Of a DNA stretch of 54,165 nucleotides, positions 7,206 through 14,441 are shown in pieces. Both the position numbers and the translations under genes were made by a program. Source of the DNA: Candidatus Marinimicrobia bacterium CG08_land_8_20_14_0_20_45_22 (lineage in GTDB: Bacteria; Fidelibacterota; UBA2242); assembly GCA_002774355.1 (NCBI GenBank), contig PEYN01000158.1, positions 1 through 54,165 on the forward strand, given 5' to 3'. Each line of letters starts with the position of its first letter. The first letter of the stretch is position 1. The notes under the pieces are model-generated. The model saw only the letters and a program-made list of their open reading frames with translations, was not told the origin of the DNA and made no database searches.

Positions 7206-8081
7206 CTACTTATCCGTCGTCAATAATACAGTAAACTTAAACGAGAAAGAGGATTGAAAGCCGCCATCCGGCTGTTCTCTGCCGCTTGAACTGCCTCGCA
7301 TGCCACTGCGGCCTCCTTGTCCATCCATCATTCCACCCTCTGATGGCGGTTCGCCGCCGTCAAATCCACCTCTACCACCGCCTTGAGATCCTTTGCCCAT
7401 TCCTCCTTTAGAATGTCCCATCAATTTTTCGGCTTTTTCTGTTTTCAGCGTAATATTTAAAGGATTCTTCGGAGATAGCGGTTCGGTTTTCAGTTGTTGG
7501 GCAATCATTTTCAGCGGAATTTGAATTTCGTACCCGAACTTTTGCCGATCCCGACTGATCTTAACGGAAAGTCCCTGTTTATTGATCAATGGCAGGATTC
7601 TCTCGTCATCCGTTCCGGATCCAATGACAATCATTTCAGTTTGAATATCATCCACCATATTTGATAGATTTTCTTGTTGTCCTGTTCGTCTTCCGGGCAT
7701 TGAGCCAGATTTCCCGAACGATCTCTCTCCCATTTCCACACCCGTTAGATTCTTTGCTAATGGAAATTTGATTCCAAAAACCCGTCCTTTCGAGCCTCTT
7801 TGCTGAATTGTCAAGGACAGTCCCTGCATCATGATTTGTCTTTCAAGATCGCGGTCTGAGCAAGTCATATAAAGGTAAAGATTACTTGAATCATTAGCGA
7901 CGCCGTAGCCGAATTTCATCTTTTCGTTCCACTTGATGCTGTTCTGCCATTCGTCTCCTTTCCCATCAACGACAATCTTTTTATCGCTCCAGAATTTTGA
8001 TGTTACAGATTCTTTACATCCATTCAACAACGTTGTCACAAAAGCCAAGCAGGAAATTAAAAGAAACATGTTTTTTTTCAT
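7206..8081 (-). CDS. Lipoprotein with glycine-rich C-terminal tail, ECF-regulon candidate
   Basis: The 291-residue product starts at ATG 8081 and has a lipoprotein signal (KKNMFLLIS, lipobox LLNGC). Residues 30-150 resemble the DOMON/CBM9-like beta-sandwich found in extracytoplasmic binding proteins (VVDGKGDEWQ, then LYLYMTCSD). Residues about 215-270 are a Gly/Met/Ser-rich low-complexity stretch, followed by a final beta strand. I recognise no named family. A promoter matching those of the neighbouring ECF sigma locus lies 134 bases upstream, so it is probably induced with the stress operon. Role unknown; envelope maintenance is a guess. Confidence 0.7.
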   Translation of the reverse strand: MKKNMFLLISCLAFVTTLLNGCKESVTSKFWSDKKIVVDGKGDEWQNSIKWNEKMKFGYGVANDSSNLYLYMTCSDRDLERQIMMQGLSLTIQQRGSKGRVFGIKFPLAKNLTGVEMGERSFGKSGSMPGRRTGQQENLSNMVDDIQTEMIVIGSGTDDERILPLINKQGLSVKISRDRQKFGYEIQIPLKMIAQQLKTEPLSPKNPLNITLKTEKAEKLMGHSKGGMGKGSQGGGRGGFDGGEPPSEGGMMDGQGGRSGMRGSSSGREQPDGGFQSSFSFKFTVLLTTDK

Positions 8082-8115: not shown

Positions 8116-8138
8116 GAGGGCAACCAGAAGTTGCCCTC
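8116..8138. repeat. Perfect 9-bp inverted repeat in a 5' leader
   Basis: GAGGGCAAC (8116-8124) and GTTGCCCTC (8130-8138) form a stem with a 5-base loop, inside the predicted leader of the lipoprotein gene and about 35 bases before its start codon. On the minus strand no T-run follows, so it is more likely a leader structure than a terminator. On the plus strand four T follow, but no gene ends there. Confidence 0.5.
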
Positions 8139-8214
8139 TTTTCTCGGAGTATACACGGAGGTGTACGGTTTTAATTCTAGTTTTTCTCAGACTTTTTTGC
8201 TAAAAAACAAGTAT

Positions 8215-8243
8215 TAGACAGCCTAACTTTTTATTTTATTCCG
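8215..8243 (-). promoter_or_regulatory. ECF-sigma promoter candidate upstream of the lipoprotein gene
   Basis: CGGAATA (8237-8243, minus strand) and TGTCTA (8215-8220) are separated by exactly 16 bases. The same 13 bases at the same spacing occur upstream of the sigma gene and of the efflux operon. The -35 box resembles the GGAA core of ECF promoters. It gives a leader of roughly 125 bases. Confidence 0.75.
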
Positions 8244-8273
8244 CCTATATTTTATATTGGCGCGGATAAAATA

Positions 8274-8693
8274 TTATTCACCAAATGGCGGAGGCGGTGG
8301 AGGACCCGGACGACGATCGATTGGTCTTGGCGGTCGATGACGTATTTGTTCCATTCGATGTTCAAAACGTTTCATCTGATCCGGAGTGAGAACTTTGGAA
8401 AGTTCAAGATTCAGCGAATCGAGACTTACAACGAAAATACGAATTTGTTCGTCGCTAAACTTCTGAATCCATCTCGAATGTTTCTTCAAAATCAAGTGAA
8501 TCTGATCCTTTTGTTCGGGTCTGGGATCAATTATCCGTTCCATTTCGGATACAAATCCTCTACCGCGCCGGAACTCCGCCACTTTTCGCTCATGATGAAA
8601 ACGCAAGTAACTGGAAACTCCGACAGATCCAATTACAATCCCAATGATCAGAACGCCGATCAGTATCAGAGTAGTTTTCGTTGTTAGTTTCAT
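8274..8693 (-). CDS. Spy/CpxP-like periplasmic protein with membrane anchor and proline tail
   Basis: This 139-residue protein has an N-terminal membrane segment (about residues 7-28) and then a helical domain rich in Arg, Glu and Gln. The phrase LTPDQMKRFEHRMEQ is typical of Spy/CpxP/heavy-metal-sensor relatives, which act as periplasmic chaperones or stress sensors. The last 20 residues are almost all Pro and Arg. ATG at 8693 has GGAG 8 bases upstream, formed by the end of the anti-sigma gene. Third gene of the sigma operon. Function inferred from family and position. Confidence 0.75.
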   Translation of the reverse strand: MKLTTKTTLILIGVLIIGIVIGSVGVSSYLRFHHERKVAEFRRGRGFVSEMERIIDPRPEQKDQIHLILKKHSRWIQKFSDEQIRIFVVSLDSLNLELSKVLTPDQMKRFEHRMEQIRHRPPRPIDRRPGPPPPPPFGE

Positions 8694-8698
8694 AATTT

Positions 8699-9127
8699 TC
8701 ACTCCATTGTAAAATAATTGATAGGGTCAATCATCTCGTCCATCGAAATTTCATGAATGCCAATGGCAGAAGATAGATTCGTTTGGGTAGATGTGCTGAC
8801 ATTGAAAGCGAGAATCAATACAACCATCGCAGAGGCGATCACTGCGACCCTCCGGAACGCTGTTAAAAAGCCACTCAAAAAAAGATTGATGCTTTCTTTC
8901 TGATTCGACAGCACCCGAATCCGATTCATTGTCCGATCGACAAACCACGGGCTGAATGATATAGACTTTCTGATTGGCGCCCGTCGATAAATAGATTCAA
9001 GACTTTTTCTCTCTTCGATTAACTCGGGATGCTCTTTGAGCGCCGCTTCCAACAGTCTTTTCTCTCGGAGTTCTAAATCCCGATCGAAAGATTGAAACAA
9101 CAATTCTTGTGCACGAATTTTTCTCAT
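8699..9127 (-). CDS. Membrane anti-sigma factor candidate (no zinc motif)
   Basis: The product has 142 residues with a charged cytoplasmic N-terminal part of about 90 residues, one membrane helix (about 93-112) and a short periplasmic tail. The N-terminal helices (RDLELREKRLLEAAL) resemble the sigma-binding part of anti-sigma proteins, but it has no cysteine at all, so it lacks the HxxxCxxC zinc motif of ZAS factors. Its ATG overlaps the sigma stop in an ATGA, with GGAG 5 bases upstream, so translation is coupled. Assignment rests mainly on position and topology. Confidence 0.75.
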   Translation of the reverse strand: MRKIRAQELLFQSFDRDLELREKRLLEAALKEHPELIEERKSLESIYRRAPIRKSISFSPWFVDRTMNRIRVLSNQKESINLFLSGFLTAFRRVAVIASAMVVLILAFNVSTSTQTNLSSAIGIHEISMDEMIDPINYFTME

Positions 9128-9672
9128 AAATTCTCCTGATAAGGTTTAAGAATTTTCAGCAGTTGCTTTTTTGCACGCGAAAATCTGGACAACACTGTTC
9201 CAATCGGTATTTGAAGTATTTCGGCTGTTTCTTCCGTTGAACACTCGTCCATCATTCGTAGAACCAACGCAGATTGAAGTTTGGGTTCCAATTGACTAAT
9301 CGCCCAGTAAATAACGTCACGCGTTTCCTCGATTTCGATACGATTCCGGTTTTCATATAAACTTTCGGAAACTTCGGGATCATCGATAGAGGTATCACGC
9401 GAAGATTTCCGCTGACGGCGTTTCAATTCGTTCAGTGAAAGATTTATGGCTATTCGGGTTAAATAAGTTCCTACAGACGCTTCTCCACGAAAATTATTTA
9501 AATTGTTATAGAACCTGATAAAAGTTTCCTGACCGACATCTTCTGCTTCGGGGCATCTGCCCAGCATTCCAACGACTGTTCCTGCAATTTTCGATTCGTA
9601 CCGATGTATGATCTCTGCAAATGCGTCTGAATTTCCTGTCAAACATGCCTGTATTGCCTCATTATCGTTCAA
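9124..9672 (-). CDS. ECF RNA polymerase sigma factor (RpoE-like)
   Basis: The 182-residue product has sigma region 2 at about residues 20-88 (EAEDVGQETFIRFYNNL and the TRIAINL segment) and region 4 at about 118-172 (ECSTEETAEILQIPIGTVLS helix-turn-helix). There is no region 3, as in ECF sigma factors. The start is TTG at 9672 with GGAG 11 bases upstream. It heads an operon with an anti-sigma and a Spy-like gene and stands divergent to an efflux operon. A matching promoter in front of itself suggests autoregulation. Confidence 0.93.
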   Translation of the reverse strand: MNDNEAIQACLTGNSDAFAEIIHRYESKIAGTVVGMLGRCPEAEDVGQETFIRFYNNLNNFRGEASVGTYLTRIAINLSLNELKRRQRKSSRDTSIDDPEVSESLYENRNRIEIEETRDVIYWAISQLEPKLQSALVLRMMDECSTEETAEILQIPIGTVLSRFSRAKKQLLKILKPYQENL

Positions 9673-9708
9673 ACTTTTGATTTCTCCGATTCTATTTCAT
9701 CCATGTCT

Positions 9709-9737
9709 TAGACATTTGCACCGACAAATATATTCCG
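9709..9737 (-). promoter_or_regulatory. ECF-sigma promoter candidate upstream of the sigma gene itself
   Basis: CGGAATA (9731-9737, minus strand) and TGTCTA (9709-9714) are 16 bases apart, identical to the sites at 8215-8243 and 9783-9811. It predicts a leader of about 30 bases and autoregulation. A short dyad, ATGTCT-T-AGACAT (9703-9715), overlaps the -10 box. Confidence 0.75.
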
Positions 9738-9782
9738 CTTTCCCAATCTGTTCATCATTTTTTTTCAAATCAACCATCAAGC

Positions 9783-9811
9783 CGGAATAAAAGCCACTTT
9801 TGGATTGTCTA
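9783..9811 (+). promoter_or_regulatory. ECF-sigma promoter candidate upstream of the efflux operon
   Basis: CGGAATA (9783-9789) and TGTCTA (9806-9811) are 16 bases apart on the plus strand, divergent to the identical element in front of the sigma gene. Predicted leader to the adaptor ATG is about 43 bases. Confidence 0.75.
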
Positions 9812-9860: not shown

Positions 9861-11156
9861 ATGAAAAAGAAAAAATGGATAATACCAATAGCCGTTCTGA
9901 TAATTGGACTTGTCTGCTGGTTCGTTTTATCCCGTGAAAAGGAGAAATCCGAATCGCAATTTACCTACGCCAAGATCACTCGCGGAAATGTGGAAAATAC
10001 CGTTTCGGCAACCGGAACGATCAAAGCCCGCGGAACCGTTGAAGTCGGCACACAGGTCTCTGGCATCATCGACCATTTGTTCGTTGATTTCAACGACAAT
10101 GTGAAGAAAAATCAGGTGTTGGCAGTTCTTGATACGACGAAATTGGCGTTGGCTGTCCGTCAGGCTGAATCCGACCTCCAGCGCGTGCAGGCGCAATACG
10201 ATCAGACCATATATGAATACGACCGGAACACCGATCTATATCAGCAAAAATTAATTTCCGAACAGGATATTATCCAATCGAAGACGGATAAAAAAACGAC
10301 GGATGCATCACTGAAAACCGCCAAAATTGCACTGGATAGAGCCGTAAAAGAACTCAAATACGCCTACGTCAAATCTCCCATCGATGGAAAAGTAATATAT
10401 CGGAACGTCGAGGAAGGACAGACCGTAGCGGCGAGTTTTACCACGCCGACAATGTTCACAATCGCCGAAGATTTAACTAAAATGGAAATTCGCGCGCTCG
10501 TTGATGAGAGCGATATTGGCTCCATCAAAGTTGGGATGAAGGCGCGATTTACCGTTCAGAGTTATCCCAACGAGACTTTCACGGGAGTTGTCCGCCAAAT
10601 CTGGCTTCAGCCGGAAACAGTCTCGAACGTCGTCAATTATACGGTCGTTCTAGACGCGACGAACGAAAAGAACCTTCTGCTTCCCGGAATGACGGCAACG
10701 ATTGACTTTTTGATTGAACACAAGGAGAACATCCTGCTGGTTCCGAATCTGGCGCTGAAAATACAGCCAACGGATGAAATGATGGCGTCTCTCCGAAAAA
10801 ACATGCCGAAACGGAGACCGCCTCATCCAGATTCTTTGGCGGTAAAACAATTCGCATCTTACGGCAATCGGATAGCGTCGAAATCCACCAACGGACAAAA
10901 TCAGCGGTCATCTACAAACTCTATTCCAGAAAATATTGGAAGAGTTTGGTTTTTAGATAACGGCGGAGAACTTCAGTTAGAAATGATTCGCACCGGCATT
11001 ACTGACGGAAAATACACCGAGGTTGTCAACTCGCACCGGCTTTCCGAAGGAATGCAGATTATCGCCAGCGTAACATCACCCGACGGATCCGTGAAATCGT
11101 CCAACGCAAATAATTCACGACAGGGCGGGCCTGGCTTTGGACCGCATCCATTTTAA
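9861..11156 (+). CDS. MacA-like periplasmic adaptor of an ABC efflux pump
   Basis: The 431-residue protein links an inner-membrane MacB transporter to an outer-membrane TolC channel. An N-terminal membrane anchor (about residues 6-22) is followed by a split lipoyl domain (VSATGTIKARGTVEVGTQVSG and later AYVKSPIDGKVIYRN), a coiled-coil hairpin (about 85-150), a beta-barrel domain and a membrane-proximal domain. A Pro/Ser/Gln-rich insertion at about 310-350 and a Gly/Pro-rich tail are unusual additions. ATG 9861 has AAGGAAAAG upstream. First gene of adaptor-ATPase-permease-TolC. Confidence 0.9.
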   Translation: MKKKKWIIPIAVLIIGLVCWFVLSREKEKSESQFTYAKITRGNVENTVSATGTIKARGTVEVGTQVSGIIDHLFVDFNDNVKKNQVLAVLDTTKLALAVRQAESDLQRVQAQYDQTIYEYDRNTDLYQQKLISEQDIIQSKTDKKTTDASLKTAKIALDRAVKELKYAYVKSPIDGKVIYRNVEEGQTVAASFTTPTMFTIAEDLTKMEIRALVDESDIGSIKVGMKARFTVQSYPNETFTGVVRQIWLQPETVSNVVNYTVVLDATNEKNLLLPGMTATIDFLIEHKENILLVPNLALKIQPTDEMMASLRKNMPKRRPPHPDSLAVKQFASYGNRIASKSTNGQNQRSSTNSIPENIGRVWFLDNGGELQLEMIRTGITDGKYTEVVNSHRLSEGMQIIASVTSPDGSVKSSNANNSRQGGPGFGPHPF

Positions 11157-11203: not shown

Positions 11204-11983
11204 ATGGAAAATAACGAAAACGTCATCGTCACGAACAATCTGACTAAAGTCTATCAAATGGGCGACGTCCGCATTCATGCGCTCAAAGGAATTAATTTAA
11301 CGGTTCGGCGTGGCGAGTTTATCGCCATTATGGGCGCTTCCGGGTCAGGAAAATCGACACTTATGAACATGCTGGGTTGTTTGGATCAACCAACATCAGG
11401 CGATTATTTTTTAGATGGAGAAAATGTCAATTCGCTCGACCGAAACGAGTACGCAGAAATTCGTAATCAAAAAATCGGTTTTGTCTTCCAGGGATTCAAT
11501 CTACTCGCCAGAACGACAGCATTGGAAAATGTCGAGTTGCCGCTAATGTATGACCGGCACAATCGGATCCAAGAGCCGCAGAAGGCGGCAAAAAGCGCGC
11601 TTGAGCGTGTCGGTCTCGCGGATCGAATGAACCATCTTCCTAATCAACTGTCCGGCGGACAACAACAGCGTGTCGCCATTGCCAGAGCATTGGTCACTCA
11701 GCCGGCGATCCTGATGGCCGACGAACCGACGGGAAATCTGGATAGTCTGAATTCAATTGAAATTTTCGGACTGTTTCAAACACTCAATCAGGAAGGAATT
11801 ACGATTGTAATGGTCACCCATGAACGCGATTTTGCTGATTACGCCACTCGCATCGTTGAAATGCGCGACGGTCGCATTCGCAAGGACTGGATCATCCAAA
11901 GTCGCCGAAATGCGCAAGCGGATCTGACTCAATATAAAGCAAACGGATCCGAGACGGAGGATGTTTATGAACAGAATTTATAA
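11204..11983 (+). CDS. MacB-type ABC transporter ATP-binding protein
   Basis: This is the nucleotide-binding subunit that drives the MacB-like permease encoded next. Its 259 residues include Walker A (GASGSGKST near residue 47), Q-loop FVFQGFNLL, signature LSGGQQQRVAIARAL and Walker B LMADEPTGNLD, followed by the H-loop MVTHE. It is a separate polypeptide here, whereas E. coli MacB fuses ATPase and permease. The last bases overlap the start of the permease gene. Confidence 0.95.
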   Translation: MENNENVIVTNNLTKVYQMGDVRIHALKGINLTVRRGEFIAIMGASGSGKSTLMNMLGCLDQPTSGDYFLDGENVNSLDRNEYAEIRNQKIGFVFQGFNLLARTTALENVELPLMYDRHNRIQEPQKAAKSALERVGLADRMNHLPNQLSGGQQQRVAIARALVTQPAILMADEPTGNLDSLNSIEIFGLFQTLNQEGITIVMVTHERDFADYATRIVEMRDGRIRKDWIIQSRRNAQADLTQYKANGSETEDVYEQNL

Positions 11984-13187
11984 TCTGATAAAAGTCGCGA
12001 TGAAAAGCATCGTGAAAAACCGGATGCGGAGCCTGCTGACCTCTTTGGGAATAATCATTGGCGTCAGCGCCGTGATTGTCATGGTGGCAGTCGGCCAAGG
12101 ATCACAGGAAAAAATCGCCGAACAGGTTGCGTCGCTTGGCACGAATCTGATCGTCATTTTTCCAGGCATAAGTAAATCGGGCGGTGTCAGCCAGGGCGCA
12201 GGCAGTTTCAACCGGTTCACATTAAAGGACGCCGAGAAAATTGCCGAACAGGCTACACTCGTGAAAGACGTGTCACCAATCGTCCGAAGCGGCGGCCAGG
12301 TAATCGGCGGCGGAACGAACTGGAGCACAACCATCAACGGCGTATCGCCCCAGTATTTCGATCTCCGTGAGTGGGGTCTGGAATACGGCGAGATTTTTAC
12401 CGAAAGAGATGTCCAGGTTTGTAAAAAGGTCGCAATCCTTGGTAAGACGATAGCAGACGAACTTTTTCCAGGACAAGATCCGACTGGCGAAACCATTCGT
12501 ATCCGAAACACACCTTTCACGGTAATTGGTGTATTAAAAGCAAAAGGCAAAAACGCGATGGGTAACGATCAAGACGACATTATCTTTGCGCCATCAACTA
12601 CAGTCTTGTACCGTCTCAAGGGACGACAATTTATCGATATGATCAACGCCGGAGCGGTTTCCACTGATAAAATGGATGCGGCGCAGGCGGAAATCCGAAG
12701 CATTCTTCGGGAAGCTCATAAACTCGATGAAGGCGACGACGACGATTTCACCATCACCAACCAGACCGAAATTACCGATATGGCATCTCAGACTTCCCGC
12801 ACGATGACGCTTCTGTTAGGAGCAGTAGCGGGAGTTTCGCTAATCGTCGGCGGCATCGGGATCATGAATATTATGCTCGTTTCCGTTACCGAGCGCACGC
12901 GGGAGATCGGAATTCGTCTTTCCATTGGAGCGCGAGCCAGTGACATTTTAGTCCAATTCCTGTCGGAATCAGTCGTTCTGAGCCTGTTTGGCGGAATCAT
13001 CGGCATTCTGCTCGCATTATTGATCTCTGGAATTCTAAATAATTTTACAGAATTGCGAACCGTTATCAAACCGTTTATCGTTATTCTCGCATTTGCGTTT
13101 TCGGGTTCAGTCGGCATTTTCTTTGGATTTTACCCCGCTCGCAAAGCCGCTAACTTGAGTCCGATCGACGCATTGCGTTACGAATAA
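11967..13187 (+). CDS. MacB/FtsX-type ABC transporter permease
   Basis: The 406-residue permease has one N-terminal membrane helix (about 20-42, LLTSLGIIIGVSAVIVMVAVG), a large periplasmic MacB-PCD domain and three C-terminal FtsX helices with the typical TERTREIGIRLSIGA segment between them. MacB transporters are mechanotransmission pumps that expel macrolides, peptides or toxins from the periplasm. ATG 11967 is chosen over 11961 because GGAGG ends right before 11961 and is 6 bases from 11967. Confidence 0.93.
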   Translation: MNRIYNLIKVAMKSIVKNRMRSLLTSLGIIIGVSAVIVMVAVGQGSQEKIAEQVASLGTNLIVIFPGISKSGGVSQGAGSFNRFTLKDAEKIAEQATLVKDVSPIVRSGGQVIGGGTNWSTTINGVSPQYFDLREWGLEYGEIFTERDVQVCKKVAILGKTIADELFPGQDPTGETIRIRNTPFTVIGVLKAKGKNAMGNDQDDIIFAPSTTVLYRLKGRQFIDMINAGAVSTDKMDAAQAEIRSILREAHKLDEGDDDDFTITNQTEITDMASQTSRTMTLLLGAVAGVSLIVGGIGIMNIMLVSVTERTREIGIRLSIGARASDILVQFLSESVVLSLFGGIIGILLALLISGILNNFTELRTVIKPFIVILAFAFSGSVGIFFGFYPARKAANLSPIDALRYE

Positions 13188-13202: not shown

Positions 13203-14441
13203 ATGAAAAGATACCTATTTTTTATCTCGATTTTATTTCTATCAATAACAACAATACAAGCCGAATCGCTGACTCTACAGCAGGCAATCGACGAGGCGTT
13301 GCATAACAATCCATCGATTCGCGAAAGTTTGATCTCCGTTCGGCAATCGCAGATCGAAACCGGACAAGCCTACTCGTCGCTTTTTCCTTCGGTAAGCGCT
13401 TCCGCTTCCGGAAATGGGCAGAAAAATTCATCTCAGAATTCATGGAGTTCGAGATGGAGTATGAGTGGCGGCGTCAACCAGTCGATTTATCAGCCCGGCC
13501 TTCTGACGAACATCAAAATATCTAAAATTCAGGAATGTATCGCCAAAACGAATTCGGATGATCTCGCATCTCAGGTCAGACAAGAGATCGAATCCGCTTA
13601 TTATGGCATTCTCAGTTCCGATGCGTTAAAGGCGGTTTATGAGGAAAATATTCTCGCCGCTGACGAAAATATCCGTAAAATTCAGGCAATGTATAAGTTG
13701 GGTATTAAAACGGAATCCGATGTTCTGAAATCGGAAGTTCAGAAAGGCGAAGTTGAAAGTCTGCTTGTAAACGAGCAAATGAATCATACCAATCAGCAAC
13801 GGAATCTGCTTACATTGCTGGGACGCGAGCCAAACACTGAAATTGCACTTGAAAAAGTCGATGTGGAAGTCATCGTGGTTCCCGATTTAAAAACCGCTGA
13901 AAATACAATGCTTGGAAAAAACCGGGATATCCTAACACTCACACAGAACCGGAAAGTCAAACAATTGAACGTTCAGATTTCACGTGAATCCTTTCTGCCA
14001 TCGATCTCGGCAAATTATTCCATCGGAAAAAGCGGATCCGGCAGTACATCGTCCAACTTGTCTAATTCAATCGGTATTTCCGCTAACATCCCGATTTTCG
14101 ACGGATTCAACAAGCGAAAAGATGTTCGGAAAAGCAAATTAGATGTGGATAAAATCGATCTTGAAATCACACAATTAAAGCAAGACCTCCGGAAAATACT
14201 GGCTTCTTATTACTCCAGCCTGGAAACATATAATTCGTTGATTTCCATTCAGGAAAAAAATCTCTCGTCCGCCCAAAAAGACCTCGATCTGGTCACGCGC
14301 CAGTACGAACTTGGACTCGTCACGATATTGGATCAGATGAACGCGCAGACGTCGGTTTTGAGGGCTAAAAGCAATTTAGTTAAACTAAAATATTCCCGGA
14401 AGATCACCGAATCTCAGATCGTTCAATTAATCGGTGGTTAA
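13203..14441 (+). CDS. TolC-family outer-membrane efflux protein
   Basis: This 412-residue protein forms the outer-membrane exit duct of the pump. A signal peptide (about 1-20, KRYLFFISILFLSIT) is followed by LTLQQAIDEALHNNPSI, the usual start of TolC repeats, and two long coiled-coil repeats with a YSIGKSGSGS beta segment between them. It follows the permease by 15 bases with GAGG upstream and closes the four-gene operon. It converges with the GH9 gene with only 13 bases between stops. Confidence 0.92.
   Translation: MKRYLFFISILFLSITTIQAESLTLQQAIDEALHNNPSIRESLISVRQSQIETGQAYSSLFPSVSASASGNGQKNSSQNSWSSRWSMSGGVNQSIYQPGLLTNIKISKIQECIAKTNSDDLASQVRQEIESAYYGILSSDALKAVYEENILAADENIRKIQAMYKLGIKTESDVLKSEVQKGEVESLLVNEQMNHTNQQRNLLTLLGREPNTEIALEKVDVEVIVVPDLKTAENTMLGKNRDILTLTQNRKVKQLNVQISRESFLPSISANYSIGKSGSGSTSSNLSNSIGISANIPIFDGFNKRKDVRKSKLDVDKIDLEITQLKQDLRKILASYYSSLETYNSLISIQEKNLSSAQKDLDLVTRQYELGLVTILDQMNAQTSVLRAKSNLVKLKYSRKITESQIVQLIGG

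Follow-up and report, generated by a model that had tools for sequence, protein, structure and literature searches.

The window, by which we mean the whole stretch of 54,165 nucleotides analysed here, very probably encodes an autoregulated envelope-stress ECF system with a putative anti-sigma factor and a Spy-like partner, the regulon of which would comprise its own operon, a MacAB-TolC-type efflux operon and the gene of a CBM9-like lipoprotein. One motif stands before all three, and it accompanies this sigma family from phylum to phylum. The sequence-only reading had proposed a local regulon of this composition and was right in its core, yet incomplete, as it missed the putative anti-sigma factor and the Spy-like protein of the sigma operon. 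Much is known about how Proteobacteria control envelope stress, but little about how uncultured bacteria of the FCB group and of neighbouring phyla do so, and a near-invariant motif beside one sigma family across phyla provides a ready predictor of regulons for uncultured genomes.

Three copies of the motif and the genes behind them

Searching the window for CGGAATA-N16-TGTCTA returned exactly three matches (Table 1), with the 13 bases, the 16-base spacing and the positions that the sequence-only reading had given, while 100 dinucleotide shuffles contained none, in line with its claim that such copies are rare by chance. All three sites are intergenic and each is directed toward a gene start, as had also been claimed; counted from the last base of the -10 box, the start codon lies 36 bp away in the sigma gene (TTG at 9672), 49 bp in the membrane fusion protein gene (ATG at 9861) and 133 bp in the lipoprotein gene (ATG at 8081). 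Extending the search to the full genome, a check that the earlier reading had proposed, showed that the window holds the only exact copies in this 97% complete draft (2,628,746 bases in 213 contigs), in which the reversed control pattern gave 0 matches. The genome-wide search used an IUPAC pattern and allowed 2 mismatches at most. Candidates for further regulon members in this genome were rejected: the four one-mismatch sites all overlap open reading frames, and the two best remaining matrix-like sites both lie within coding sequence, one (C29:2570) inside a 474-aa frame and the other (C41:146) inside an open frame that runs off the contig end.

Table 1. Predicted promoters and genes of the ECF system in the window
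Feature	Position	Strand	Evidence
Lipoprotein, 291 aa, CBM9/DOMON-like sandwich and Gly-rich stretch	7206..8081	-	Lipobox, 15-member family, Foldseek
ECF promoter (predicted) of the lipoprotein gene, just past the end of the sigma operon	8215..8243	-	Kept in L034, L035
Membrane-anchored Spy/CpxP-like periplasmic protein, 139 aa, Pro-rich tail	8274..8693	-	Homologs, LTXXQ, Spy profile, helical model
Putative anti-sigma factor, 142 aa	8699..9127	-	Position after sigma, topology, alignment, weak family matches
ECF sigma factor, 182 aa, TTG start	9124..9672	-	Sigma70_r2 5.2e-13, Sigma70_r4_2 2.1e-12
ECF promoter (predicted) of the sigma operon, CGGAATA-N16-TGTCTA	9709..9737	-	Relatives keep site: L005/L034, L006/L035; 72/79 homologous sigma genes
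ECF promoter (predicted) of the divergent MacAB-TolC-type efflux operon	9783..9811	+	Kept in L034, L035
Periplasmic adaptor (membrane fusion protein, MacA-like), Gly/Pro-rich C-terminus	9861..11156	+	HlyD_D23 3.9e-20; RND_mfp above cut-off
ABC ATPase, MacB/LolD type	11204..11983	+	ABC_tran 6e-36; best model MacB
MacB-type permease	11961..13187	+	MacB_PCD 4.4e-50, FtsX 3.1e-19
TolC-like outer-membrane channel	13203..14441	+	OEP 7.2e-57

The divergent operon holds, by domain content, what appears to be a full MacAB-TolC set, namely an adaptor, a MacB_PCD/FtsX permease together with an ABC ATPase, and a TolC-like channel. It resembles MacAB-TolC in having all of these in one operon, and differs from it in that ATPase and permease are split into two genes and in that the scores fall far under the MacA and MacB equivalog cut-offs.

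The lipoprotein gene follows the sigma operon and has a long 5' leader. Its product carries the lipobox LLNGC, and its model (pLDDT 71) gave a Foldseek match to CBM9 at 2.9e-4. Read-through out of the sigma operon could be an alternative source of its expression. The leader contains a perfect hairpin at window positions 8117-8142 (GAGGGCAACCAGAAGTTGCCCTC on the + strand), which is kept with an altered loop in the genome of the same genus and is not kept in G006, the second genome of the family; an Rfam search of the region gave no match.

The sigma operon and its candidate switch

The sigma promoter heads an operon of three genes, encoding the sigma factor, a putative membrane anti-sigma factor and a membrane-anchored Spy/CpxP-like protein, the ends of which overlap or nearly touch. 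The sigma factor has regions 2 and 4 only and a length of about 180 aa, which by sequence assigns it to the ECF (group 4) type, and it scores above the sigma70-ECF superfamily cut-off. ECF genes typically have an autoregulated promoter with -35 and -10 boxes at a fixed spacer of 16-17 bp, and sequence conservation predicts such a promoter before this gene, with a spacer of 16. The product of the second gene begins with a cytoplasmic part, continues with a single hydrophobic segment and closes with a short C-terminal tail; its family matches are weak, and position and topology point to an anti-sigma role. The third product carries LTPDQ, and its own match to LTXXQ (PF07813) is below threshold; 14 of 29 aligned homologs have the LTXXQ family match and a profile search matched Spy structures at 1.5e-5, so that, on family evidence, it is classed as Spy/CpxP-like. 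Its AlphaFold model is all-helical (pLDDT 88), and Foldseek found no significant match to this model and no solved relative.

The presence of the putative anti-sigma factor and the Spy-like protein in the sigma operon suggests how the system may be switched. In an unstressed cell, the anti-sigma factor would keep the sigma factor at the inner membrane, with the Spy-like protein assisting this retention from the periplasm. Periplasmic stress, in the form of misfolded protein or a toxic pump substrate, would pull the Spy-like protein off or alter it and thereby free the sigma factor, upon which RNA polymerase carrying the freed sigma factor would read GGAATA-N16-TGTCTA and more of the sigma operon, the efflux operon and the lipoprotein would be produced. 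We infer here that this sigma factor recognizes the promoters, and likewise the signal and the direction in which the Spy-like protein acts. With the motif, the hypothesis that an anchored Spy-like chaperone serves as the sensor of an ECF system becomes concrete and testable.

A similar set of parts is known from the CnrYXH system of Cupriavidus metallidurans, which consists of the ECF sigma factor CnrH, the anti-sigma factor CnrY and the periplasmic sensor CnrX, with an adjoining efflux operon. The window system shares with it an ECF sigma factor, a membrane anti-sigma factor (putative here), an anchored helical periplasmic protein and an adjoining efflux operon. This parts list, together with PF13801 (Metal_resist) matches in some homologs of the Spy-like protein and in several secreted proteins of the regulon, would fit a metal switch of the Cnr kind, in which the Spy-like protein is a CnrX-type metal-binding sensor signalling through the anti-sigma factor, with the regulon forming a metal-resistance island. 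We consider this unlikely. The pump is a MacAB-type ABC system, not an RND pump of the CnrCBA type, and the alignment of the Spy-like family contains no conserved His, Cys or Met except the start Met; the lack of any conserved metal-ligand residue in the family leaves CnrX-like metal sensing without support. The GGAATA/TGTCTA promoter and the hosts, FCB-group bacteria and neighbours, are further differences. On the features tested, metal ligands and an RND target, both are lacking, and the system falls outside the CnrYXH family. The CnrH-CnrY structure is cited in PMC8103513 and PMC7406223.

The LTxxQ motif, the helical make-up, the Spy profile match and the envelope-stress context liken the periplasmic protein to Spy and CpxP; unlike these, it is anchored in a membrane and shares its operon with an ECF sigma factor instead of being under a two-component system. 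Systems of the RpoE/SigW type also combine an ECF sigma factor and a membrane anti-sigma factor (putative here) with an autoregulated promoter (predicted here) and envelope functions; the window sigma factor, however, falls under the RpoE and SigW equivalog cut-offs, and its system has GGAATA as -35 box, TGTCTA as -10 box and a Spy-like third gene. In architecture the system would be analogous to CnrYXH and in the type of its periplasmic protein to Cpx/Spy, and it belongs to the ECF sigma superfamily.

The same genome contains a second ECF locus (L128; G000:C38:8800-12600) encoding a sigma factor, an anti-sigma factor in which HCxxCxxC forms a zinc-finger-like motif, and a pair of secreted proteins that are Spy/LTXXQ-like. 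The sequence upstream of this locus differs, showing AACTTT and GTCTAA boxes and lacking the GGAATA motif.

Conservation of the motif with one sigma family

Sixty relatives were searched for orthologs of the sigma factor, which were found in G001, a genome of the same genus (86% identical), in G006 (59%) and in G024 (45%). G001 and G006 have the same gene order and keep all three sites with 0-2 mismatches and with diverged spacers, and G024 keeps the site before the sigma gene and has a Spy-like gene after it.

G001 has one further site (C66), which precedes an acyltransferase-like gene; the counterpart region of the window genome is 75% identical and carries no exact site, and this candidate was set aside. 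The sigma locus is patchy, a close ortholog being present only in the window genome, G001 and G006 among the 16 genomes of family f1 (relatives G002-G015). This, together with sigma relatives of 50-60% identity in other phyla, suggests loss or horizontal spread of the locus.

A scan of genome contigs collected 80 loci, the sigma proteins of which are 45-86% identical; they come from KSB1, Calditrichota, Zixibacteria, Bacteroidota, Aminicenantes, Gemmatimonadota, Latescibacterota, Fibrobacteria, Eisenbacteria and others. Usable sequence upstream of the sigma gene was available for 79 of them, these homologs being mostly from other phyla, and 72 of the 79 had a site with at most 2 mismatches there, against 0.7 expected from shuffles. 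The family pattern NGGAATR-N15/16-KGTCHA likewise occurred just upstream of 72 of 79 sigma genes and of 0.0 in Markov-generated controls, with a spacer of 16 in 67 cases and of 15 in 5. A weight matrix made from 61 sites, with Neomarinimicrobiota, the phylum of the window genome, left out, ranked the three window sites first in the window (28.1, 23.7 and 20.2; next score 17.1), indicating that the motif is not just a pattern fitted to the window.

The motif is also specific. None of 25 other ECF genes of the relatives (at most 38% identical to the sigma factor) had a site within 2 mismatches, and GGAATA-N16-TGTCTA was found 8 times in the window genome, G001 and G006 together, versus 0 for the reversed control, and 18 times in the 58 genomes outside these three, versus 19 for the control. 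With no site before the other ECF genes and a chance-level frequency in the 58 genomes, the motif is not one that is widespread without relation to this sigma factor, an outcome that the sequence-only reading had named as speaking against it. The same results bear on which sigma factor reads the boxes. The window genome has at least four further ECF-like genes, and one of these could in principle encode the factor in question, the sigma factor of Table 1 then being a mere neighbour; we regard this as very improbable, given that the motif tracks this sigma family through many phyla, is missing before the relatives' other ECF genes and falls to chance level in relatives that lack a close ortholog. 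Least probable of all is that the sites are not promoters and instead serve a DNA-binding repressor or activator as operators, or represent copies of a small repeat, as three identical sets of 13 bases close together might suggest, for the two boxes are neither inverted nor direct repeats of each other, the sites are always oriented toward a gene, a spacing of 16, rarely of 15, holds in all phyla and the sequence around the three copies is not common to them.

Comparison thus strongly supports the earlier interpretation of the three sites as ECF promoters, through footprinting in two genomes, the 72 homologs, the 25 other ECF genes and the genomes that lack a close ortholog. Placement and conservation also support its proposal that the sigma factor probably drives its own gene, efflux and the lipoprotein, and conservation argues strongly for autoregulation and for the predicted membership of the regulon.

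Regulon content across relatives

Applied to all 80 loci (863 kb), the full matrix found 103 sites, including the sigma-gene sites used in training, versus 1 in reversed sequence. About 43 of them are other than the sigma gene's own promoter, and most of these lie 20-60 bases before genes for TolC, lipoproteins, adaptors or secreted proteins: TolC in 7 loci, the same lipoprotein family in 3 and an adaptor gene in 2. The TolC genes are those of L073, L081, L089, L091, L092, L096 and L120, with adaptor genes following in several, which indicates that this sigma family is linked to TolC-dependent efflux repeatedly, in other phyla as well. Efflux genes were detected in about 11-13 of the 80 loci, many of the contigs being cut, and efflux is therefore not a constant target. 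As to the other secreted proteins behind the extra sites, 16 of 20 tested match LTXXQ and/or Metal_resist (E up to 0.01, a few weakly). A simple BLAST search detected the anti-sigma factor in about 65 of the 80 loci and the Spy-like protein in about 62, both lower bounds, since similarity is low and a number of contigs stop early.

A wider reading, to which we give slightly less than even credence, sees here an uncharacterised ECF system spread across many phyla. An anchored Spy-like chaperone would act as the gate of an atypical anti-sigma factor, and folding stress in the periplasm would thereby be tied to efflux and to the secreted chaperones of Spy-like type. Such a system would be the counterpart, in the FCB group and its neighbours, of the Cpx and RpoE responses. 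Autoregulated ECF promoters are the expected kind of thing; the breadth, the near invariance of the motif and the Spy-like partner are less so. Among the papers searched, none described the motif together with an ECF/Spy system, which speaks weakly for novelty. The kind of system is known, and the variant described here is probably uncharacterised.

Four loci (L045, L066, L084 and L090) show an unusual combination, in that LTXXQ/Metal_resist-like proteins whose genes are preceded by the motif have FlgD_ig or type IX secretion sorting domains in addition.
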